From: Rhizomucor pusillus
Lineage: Eukaryota > Mucoromycota > Mucoromycetes > Mucorales > Lichtheimiaceae
DNA: 64,000 bases
Assembly (NCBI GenBank): GCA_900175165.2
Contig: FWWN02000665.1
Span: 62,001-126,000, forward strand
Direction: 5' to 3'
Shown: in pieces, positions 11,292-12,227 of the stretch
Layout: each line of letters opens with the position of its first letter
Position numbering within the stretch: the stretch's first letter is position 1
Translations under genes and position numbers: made by a program
Notes under the pieces: model-generated
Seen by the model: only the letters and a program-made list of their open reading frames with translations
What the model was told of the DNA's origin: nothing
The model's database searches: none

Positions 11292-12227
11292 TTAAACCTT
11301 GCTTGCTACACATCGTTCGCTCAATAGCTTGGTACTGTTGCGCTCGTGCGCAGCTTGTTTACAGCTGAGAAGGTTAACGCAGGCGTGGTCTTCGGGGAGT
11401 CGGTGGCGTGAGCAAAACTTGGATTGGCAGTATCGGCAATCACCAATGATCTTGACAACCTTGTCTGTACAATCCCCGAACGCGCATCTCTTCTTCTTTC
11501 CAGCAGCGGTGCTGCTACTTGATGCAGCTGCTGCTTCAGGGCTTCCTCCACGCAGACGCAGTACCAGATGTAACGTGGATTCCTTTTGAATGTTATAGTC
11601 CGACAAGGTGCGGCCATCTTCAAGTTGCTTTCCAGCAAAGATAAGACGCTGCTGATCCGGAGGGATACCTTCCTTATCCTGAATCTTCTGCTTAACATTT
11701 TCGATGCTGTCCGACGACTCAACCTCCAACGTGATAGTCTTGCCGGTCAAAGTCTTTACAAAGATCTGCATACCTCCACGTAGGCGGAGCACGAGGTGAA
11801 GGGTAGACTCCTTTTGAATGTTGTAGTCTGAGAGAGTACGGCCGTCCTCAAGCTGTTTGCCAGCAAAGATAAGGCGCTGCTGGTCTGGTGGGATACCTTC
11901 CTTGTCCTGGATCTTGGCCTTGACATTGTCGATCGTGTCTGAAGATTCCACTTCCAACGTAATGGTCTTGCCCGTAAGTGTCTTGACAAAAATCTGCATA
12001 CCGCCGCGCAGACGAAGTACGAGGTGAAGGGTAGACTCCTTCTGAATGTTGTAGTCTGAAAGCGTACGGCCGTCCTCAAGCTGTTTGCCAGCGAAAATAA
12101 GGCGCTGCTGGTCAGGAGGGATACCTTCCTTGTCTTGAATCTTTTGTTTGACGTTCTCGATACAGTCGGAGGATTCGACTTCCAAGGTGATAGTCTTGCC
12201 AGTGAGTGTCTTGACAAAGATCTGCAT
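11292..12227 (-). CDS. Polyubiquitin (three units) fused to an AN1 zinc finger
   Basis: A single exon of 311 residues starting [12 protein letters not shown] at 12227. Three 76-residue ubiquitins follow head to tail, each ending LRLRGG. All seven lysines, Ile44 and the C-terminal Gly-Gly are kept. The units differ at positions 22, 24 and 28 (Cys/Glu/Gln, Thr/Asp/Ala, Ser/Glu/Gln). After the third LRGG comes a Ser/Ala linker, then an AN1 finger of the form C-x4-C-x9-C-x2-C-x4-C-x2-H-x5-H-x-C, starting at RCAFGDC. Deubiquitinases would be expected to release free ubiquitin and an AN1 tail protein. AN1 proteins of the Cuz1/Tmc1 and ZFAND type act with p97 and the proteasome under stress. The frame is open upstream to 12326, but the TATA box places the start at 12227. 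Confidence 0.92.

Follow-up and report, generated by a model that had tools for sequence, protein, structure and literature searches.

ZFAND4 (ANUBL1) carries a ubiquitin-like domain (UBL) at its N-terminus and an AN1 zinc finger at its C-terminus, the UBL not being canonical ubiquitin, and the Xenopus 'ubiquitin-like fusion proteins' of 1993 reportedly have the same order, again with a UBL that is not canonical ubiquitin. Here we analysed a gene of Rhizomucor pusillus in which three canonical ubiquitins run head to tail into an AN1 finger, located in a 64,000-nucleotide stretch (the window below) of contig FWWN02000665.1 (positions 62,001 to 126,000, assembly GCA_900175165.2). We read it, with a probability of roughly 0.7, as a cleavable ubiquitin precursor of a ubiquitin-AN1 (Ub-AN1) class, yielding three ubiquitins and one small AN1 protein that is likely a proteasome or p97 accessory factor, the differences between the three units being tolerated drift.

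Recent accounts recognise three types of ubiquitin gene (PMC10457151, available text) or 'at least three loci' (PMC4197634). The premise of the earlier note on this DNA, that ubiquitin fusions normally carry ribosomal proteins, is incomplete, since zf-AN1 and zf-RRN7 are given in the available text of PMC8122580 as the most abundant unusual ubiquitin-fusion partners, ca. 1.2%. Ubiquitin fused to 'zinc ring finger' proteins, one of them of 145 amino acids (aa), is also mentioned for two algae in the available part of PMC6332867. A literature search, with most subscription journals and supplementary tables outside its scope, found no paper devoted to fungal Ub-AN1 genes among the matches listed.

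Gene layout and the three ubiquitin units

The open reading frame runs on the minus strand from an ATG at 12227 to a stop codon at 11292-11294 (Table 1), and its translation and Pfam bore out what had been claimed from the letters alone, namely three head-to-tail ubiquitins with LRLRGG ends and an AN1 finger in a single frame. Each unit has 76 residues (three stretches of PF00240, 316 bits) and the tail has 83, including a complete finger that zf-AN1 (PF01428) matched once, at residues 248-285, with 47.1 bits against a cut-off of 27.9, and whose ligand spacing, read from the translation, is C-x4-C-x10-C-x2-C-x4-C-x2-H-x5-H-x-C. The residues after the three LRLRGG junctions are Met, Met and Ser, and a canonical ubiquitin with LRLRGG sits immediately before the foreign tail, as in a natural ubiquitin-fusion precursor. 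Since ubiquitin is followed by a finger with every ligand and by a tail of the [KR]CVAxK[VIL] type at the C-terminus, the protein falls within the Ub-AN1 class. The TRF program reported the array with a period of 228, 3.0 copies and 82% matches. An in-frame ATG at 12326 sits upstream of the TATATAAA box, so that the start at 12227 is likely; by eye, AATAAA lies ~115 nucleotides past the stop codon. The full-length protein matched one place in the genome searched (24.45 Mb, 353 contigs).

Alignment of the units confirmed that they differ solely at residues 22, 24 and 28 (Cys-Glu-Gln, Thr-Asp-Ala and Ser-Glu-Gln, respectively), with all seven lysines and Ile44 the same in all three. Their DNA is 79-86% identical (33, 48 and 49 differences per 228), so that identical repeats collapsed during assembly, an outcome named in the earlier note as one that would overturn it, are excluded as the source of these differences. 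The broader suspicion of an assembly artefact, a chimera of a polyubiquitin and an AN1 gene, draws on the difficulty of assembling repeats; given this level of DNA divergence, and the same fusion in many separately sequenced species, we consider its probability negligible.

Comparison with the genome's own ubiquitins showed how ordinary most of this protein sequence is. A five-unit polyubiquitin, ending Gly-Gly-Asn, has Ser22-Glu24-Gln28 in its units, with Val26Ile in addition in the first. Unit 3 of the window gene equals four of these five units as protein, unit 1 is an ordinary polyubiquitin unit with the single change Ser22Cys, and unit 2 departs from the genome's ordinary ubiquitin at three sites. 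Two Ub-eL40 genes, with two introns each, carry Thr22-Asp24-Gln28 in one and Ser22-Glu24-Gln28 in the other, and sites 22 and 24 therefore vary between loci anyway. Altogether, the window gene encodes three of the ten canonical ubiquitin units found in the genome. The single eS31 gene (L013, G000:C4:49611-49748 plus upstream sequence) has a strongly diverged N-terminal ubiquitin part that ends LLGGG, as read by eye across one intron; eS31 fusions with diverged ubiquitin have been reported in a variety of protists (PMC10457151, available text).

At the DNA level, the proportion of synonymous differences (pS, Nei-Gojobori) was 0.52 between units 1 and 2, 0.86 between 1 and 3, and 0.79 between 2 and 3, while nonsynonymous divergence (dN, same method) was 0.035, 0.023 and 0.047; synonymous divergence (dS) was 0.88 for units 1-2. 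Two of the three pairs approach saturation at synonymous sites, and the pS and dS values are indicative only. Pairs 1-3 and 2-3 match the distance to other ubiquitin loci (pS 0.65-0.89), pair 1-2 being closer, and the array does not display the mark of recent concerted evolution, units closer to each other at synonymous sites than units across loci. Near-saturated synonymous sites for two pairs, together with the low dN, argue that purifying selection and not recent gene conversion keeps the units alike, and the contrast of dN (0.023-0.047) with pS (0.52-0.86) suggests that selection on the ubiquitin protein is strong. Thus, unit 3 lacks DNA-level homogenisation with its neighbours and units 1 and 2 are at most weakly homogenised; a search for mosaic gene conversion between the latter two, in which their differences were counted over four blocks (8, 14, 4 and 7), found no clear tract. 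The proposal that the array is escaping concerted evolution holds in this sense: the units have not been homogenised of late. The units of the polyubiquitin locus are closer among themselves than those of the window gene (dS 0.20-1.06); its units 1/3 and 2/4 have almost identical DNA (L002, 1501-2640; dS 0.20 each), which suggests duplication or recent exchange. The accompanying statement that polyubiquitin units are near-always identical through gene conversion is incomplete, as concerted evolution versus birth-and-death is disputed for polyubiquitin repeats (PMC10457151, available text).

Relatives and the Gly-Gly junction

Relatives were collected in three protein searches. Search 1, with tail region 227-311 as query, covered proteins of ~171-545 aa and returned 51, the window's own and 50 others. 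Search 2 (13 tails as queries, 189 matches, best 120 considered, longest among the matches listed 151 aa) and search 3 (14 more diverse queries, 834 matches, best 120 considered, longest among the matches listed 257 aa) listed nothing longer, so that arrays of at least three units are under-counted outside search 1. The pooled set comprises 229 proteins, the window's own included (cited by P numbers); many are unnamed metagenomic proteins, and some 'stand-alone' AN1 rows may be gene-model fragments, the tail of Phycomyces P0052 being that of the fused P0006. A canonical unit was defined by at least 68 of 76 residues alike and AN1 by a regular expression, the remaining proteins failing one or the other.

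Related Mucoromycota, which the earlier note proposed to search, share the fusion: canonical ubiquitin is present in 44 of the 50 other proteins that search 1 matched by their tail, and in none of P0040, P0042, P0045, P0047, P0049 and P0051. Organism names are attached to 33 of the 50, all of them Mucorales or Umbelopsis (lineage looked up for Umbelopsis), and 17 are nameless. Among the matches listed, 98 of the 229 proteins, including the window's own, carry at least one canonical ubiquitin plus AN1: one unit in 36, two in 52 and three in two (the window gene and P0050), with eight more that have one or two canonical units and another recognisably diverged from ubiquitin. Fusions of Mucorales have two units as a rule; the layout is two units, a diverged UBL and AN1 in Umbelopsis, and one unit, UBL and AN1 in Syncephalis. 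Canonical ubiquitin also precedes AN1 in Thamnocephalis (two), Paraphysoderma (two), Basidiobolus (one), Powellomyces (one) and Pneumocystis (one), and the NCBI taxonomy places Basidiobolus in Basidiobolomycota, Syncephalis in Zoopagomycota, Paraphysoderma in Blastocladiomycota and Powellomyces in Chytridiomycota. Also among the matches listed, Rozella, Blastocladiella and three Microbotryomycetes (Pseudohyphozyma, Meredithblackwellia and Microbotryum) have a diverged ubiquitin-like part only, and many chytrid proteins are the AN1 protein alone. Ub-AN1 relatives bear database names such as polyubiquitin, ubiquitin C, 60S ribosomal protein L40A and ubiquitin-60S ribosomal protein L40; Basidiobolus P0075 and Pneumocystis P0159 are named 60S ribosomal protein L40, yet their tail is AN1. 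No protein named Tmc1 was among the matches listed in searches 2 and 3 (best 120 of 189 and best 120 of 834).

Because the 68/76 cut-off itself includes the last six residues, the LRLRGG count was redone on the first 70 residues (62/70 alike), which left 97 proteins besides the window's own; the last such unit ends LRLRGG in all 97, and 151 of 152 units have this end, the exception being one P0046 unit with LRLRLL. Directly behind the last GG, the 72 of the 98 proteins whose linker is at most 45 aa carry G, A, N, S, T, M, V, I or D, and none of them carries P. By the 76-residue definition, the seven lysines are kept in 155/155 canonical units and Leu8/Ile44/His68/Val70 in 154/155, with the P0046 unit again the exception (His68 changed, two extra residues before GG).

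Some relatives (P0002, P0003, P0009, P0016, P0021-P0023, P0026, P0028, P0172 and P0175) have, between their canonical ubiquitins and AN1, a diverged ubiquitin-like domain whose end is not cleavable, so that a UBL-AN1 protein would be released. In P0002, P0021 and P0175, for example, this AN1-proximal domain, devoid of GG, is far diverged from ubiquitin and the preceding units are canonical. The strongest indication that canonical junctions are cut, and the freed ubiquitins used, is this contrast of a diverged proximal domain without GG and canonical units with GG. Relatives in Umbelopsis, Syncephalis and Gongronella whose GG-less domain must stay attached to AN1 lend some plausibility to an uncleaved linear tri-ubiquitin adaptor bearing an AN1 finger; in the window gene, however, all three junctions are canonical LRLRGG followed by Met, Met and Ser, and the ubiquitin bodies are under ubiquitin-level constraint, making such an adaptor very unlikely.

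Variation within the family bears on the proposal that the three units are functionally distinct. Against the reference used, the most variable unit sites are 24 (92 of 155), 22 (65 of 155) and 28 (60 of 155). Among the 55 proteins with at least two canonical units, the window's own included, units are identical in 38 and non-identical in 17, and within-protein differences lie mostly at 28 (seven proteins), 22 (six) and 24 (five). Three different sequences in one gene, and non-identical units in 16 of the 54 other multi-unit proteins, might be expected of specialised variants with distinct signalling roles, but the differences are confined to the family's most variable sites, unit 3 is ordinary, unit 1 is a single residue off, and in 38 of the other 54 proteins the units do not differ. 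Functional divergence was rejected as an explanation, since the changes affect the commonest variable sites and one unit is ordinary, and we consider specialised roles very unlikely. The unit differences are probably tolerated drift at 22, 24 and 28, and nothing in them points to a new function.

A cleavable Ub-AN1 precursor would work as follows. Ordinary deubiquitinases would cut the chain after every Gly-Gly, as the junction chemistry leads one to expect, giving three ubiquitins fit for conjugation plus an AN1 protein of 83 residues that starts Ser-Pro-Glu. The ubiquitins would enter the common pool. By analogy with characterised AN1 proteins, the tail product would most probably serve as a small accessory factor of the ubiquitin-proteasome system, docking through its finger and its C-terminal helix or motif on the proteasome or p97. 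The fusion would tie AN1 supply to ubiquitin supply, just as ribosomal proteins are tied to it in Ub-eL40 and Ub-eS31.

Regarding the tail, the finger sequence matches the solved AN1 domains 1wfe, 7y7l and Cuz1 5ij4. A model of the relative P0052 (Phycomyces) consists of the finger and an 18-residue helix (mean pLDDT 74); its best structure matches are AN1 domains, the fold comparison being weak. The ZFAND5-proteasome chains 7qxw_v and 9bui_z lay outside the best 20 Foldseek and best 10 VIA matches, a weak comparison that proves nothing. The AN1 of ZFAND5 docks on Rpt5, and ZFAND proteins work with the proteasome and p97 (PMC11799193, available text); a bortezomib synthetic-lethal screen includes in its gene list the S. 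pombe partner of S. cerevisiae YOR052C, which is described there as zf-AN1 type (PMC3132776, available text). The C-terminal motif is present in a loose form in 210 of 222 AN1 proteins and in the strict form [KR]CVAxK[VIL] in 159 of 222, the window's own included. Its kinship with the 19-residue proteasome-stimulating peptide of ZFAND5 (PMC11799193, available text) was considered and not upheld: the likeness was by eye (VVAEKI against CVASKV), and hhalign aligned the finger only (30 columns, probability 14%).

A neutral alternative is that a chance join was kept because cleavage makes the fusion harmless, the result being co-expression with no functional coupling. The tail tree intersperses fused, UBL and stand-alone forms, with at least six forced changes of 'fused', and the genome has ubiquitin from a five-unit polyubiquitin and from two Ub-eL40 genes anyway; both observations suit this account. 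Against it, the fusion extends through Mucorales and to named genera in several further phyla, and the partner is always one AN1 kind with a much alike C-terminal motif, a uniformity partly built in because the searches used that tail as query. On balance we regard neutral co-expression as unlikely, while giving it real weight.

The tail tree itself (67 hand-picked of the 229 proteins, 64 columns) is poorly resolved, its bootstrap not settled. The window gene lies within a 40-row group (support 99/95) of Mucoromycota plus long-branched Pneumocystis and Microbotryomycetes; these long-branched rows are drawn beside it (91/81), a join that may be false according to the tool's warning. The highest identity of the gene's tail is 89%, with Phycomyces; measured by path, it lies nearest to fusions from Mucorales and to one unnamed fusion. 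The labels fused, UBL and stand-alone change often on the tree, with well-supported branches forcing the changes of 'fused' counted above, and the pattern is as compatible with an old fusion lost several times as with one gained several times. A larger history is conceivable, and we hold it tentatively, at somewhat less than even odds: Ub-AN1 would be an ancient ubiquitin-precursor class (fungal ancestor or earlier) beside polyubiquitin, Ub-eL40 and Ub-eS31, coupling ubiquitin supply to a proteasome/p97 factor and repeatedly turning the AN1-proximal ubiquitin into a non-cleavable UBL after Gly-Gly loss, with Tmc1 as a stripped-down descendant.

For the window gene on its own the surprise is modest. 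The distribution suggests a further ubiquitin gene class, widespread in early-diverging fungi and carried under other database names. Should the AN1 half prove to be a proteasome or p97 factor, ubiquitin supply would be hard-wired to degradation capacity in one transcript, and cleavable ubiquitins and non-cleavable UBLs within one family make a good system for the origin of ubiquitin-like domains.

Upstream region, a decayed copy and other features of the window

The region upstream of the Ub-AN1 gene contains a gap-type heat-shock-like element (TTCCCGAAAATACTGGAA), TGACGTCT, TATA and CCAAT, the last on both strands; the polyubiquitin gene too has TGACGTCA upstream, along with TATA and CCAAT. 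These motifs were chosen post hoc, 15 patterns having been tried on four upstream regions. The heat-shock-like pattern TTCnnGAAn7GAA has two window matches against 1.13 expected by chance, the second in the decayed copy described below, and the CRE-like pattern has two against 4.31 expected; neither exceeds chance, and the promoter motifs are suggestive only. Joint stress induction of the Ub-AN1 and polyubiquitin genes is a fair guess.

About 5 kb from the gene, start codon to start codon, and on the same strand lies a decayed partial copy. Pairwise alignment of its positions 7120-7404 with the gene gave 245 of 277 aligned columns identical (88%) and a score of 376, where 200 shuffles reached 70 at most; a blastn comparison of the gene with this region gave no matches. 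The copy lacks a 62-base stretch holding the gene's TATA box, its frame is broken by an insertion and runs into a stop, and beyond it no AN1 was identified. Its match to promoter, 5' untranslated region (UTR) and codons, together with the frame break and the stop, indicates a local gene duplication of which one copy died. Just beyond it, at ~6573-6857 on the minus strand, a 94-codon frame has a Cys/His-rich end resembling, by eye, a zinc knuckle of the MYND kind, with no Pfam match.

Elsewhere in the window, two minus-strand frames at 16089-17680 encode glucose-6-phosphate dehydrogenase in at least two exons, minus-strand frames at 15268-16053 and 18693-19268 have no Pfam match, and two overlapping plus-strand frames at 4347-5952, probably exons of one gene, encode translation initiation factor 2 (GTPase, domain 2 and IF-2 domains). 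Positions 44001-46000 have a strong AT skew (-0.29), with a 12/36-base tandem repeat at 45513-45602, and positions 50001-52000 a strong GC skew (0.22).

Table 1 Features of the Ub-AN1 gene, its upstream region and the decayed copy (window positions).
Feature	Position	Strand	Remark
Whole coding sequence, Ub-Ub-Ub-AN1	11292..12227	minus	311 aa + stop, intronless
Ubiquitin unit 1 (Cys22 Glu24 Gln28)	12000..12227	minus	LRLRGG end
Ubiquitin unit 2 (Thr22 Asp24 Ala28)	11772..11999	minus	LRLRGG end
Ubiquitin unit 3 (Ser22 Glu24 Gln28)	11544..11771	minus	LRLRGG end, then Ser
Low-complexity linker	11487..11543	minus	19 residues; predicted new N-terminus once cleaved
AN1 zinc finger	11379..11486	minus	8/8 Cys/His ligands
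Conserved C-terminal motif ERCVASKV	11295..11318	minus	
TATATAAA box	12295..12302	minus	~70 nucleotides upstream of start codon
TGACGTCT, CRE-like	12343..12350	minus	post hoc
TTCCCGAAAATACTGGAA, gap-type heat-shock-element-like	12353..12370	minus	post hoc
Decayed partial copy (promoter, 5' UTR, ~48 ubiquitin codons)	7116..7404	minus	stop at 7116-7118

Comparison with known systems

The earlier note had set the finger beside AN1 proteins of the Cuz1/Tmc1/ZFAND group, and the Cuz1 part of this comparison does not stand: the LDFLP motif that follows the first Cys pair in Cuz1/ZFAND1 is absent from the window protein, and so is a UBL C-terminal to AN1, only 28 residues following the last finger cysteine. 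Cuz1/ZFAND1 likewise combine an AN1 finger and a ubiquitin-like domain in one protein, but their UBL is C-terminal and their finger has LDFLP or RDFLP (PMC5035049, available text), whereas here ubiquitin is N-terminal, canonical and apparently cleavable. The 21 Pfam families matched include no A20, the finger that lies N-terminal to AN1 in the A20/AN1 proteins (ZFAND5/6, plant SAP). Yeast Tmc1 (YOR052C) and S. pombe SPBC1271.05c, compared by description only, are likewise fungal AN1-finger proteins, AN1 being the only domain of Tmc1 according to the available text of a review (PMC11799193).

Ub-eL40 and Ub-eS31 (yeast UBI1/2/3) resemble the window gene in using ubiquitin as the cleavable N-terminal partner of a small zinc-binding protein, which is ribosomal there and an AN1 protein here. 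Polyubiquitin (yeast UBI4; human UBB and UBC) shares the head-to-tail units cut at Gly-Gly and ends in one extra residue, in contrast to the 83-residue AN1 tail. A close counterpart is the published architecture joining ubiquitin to zf-AN1 (PF00240 + PF01428; PMC8122580), for which the available text states abundance alone and leaves the order for AN1 unstated. The Ub-AN1 architecture is thus already in print, and its fungal breadth and the series from cleavable ubiquitin to UBL are the more interesting part; the window gene itself is set apart by three non-identical units, where most relatives found have one or two.
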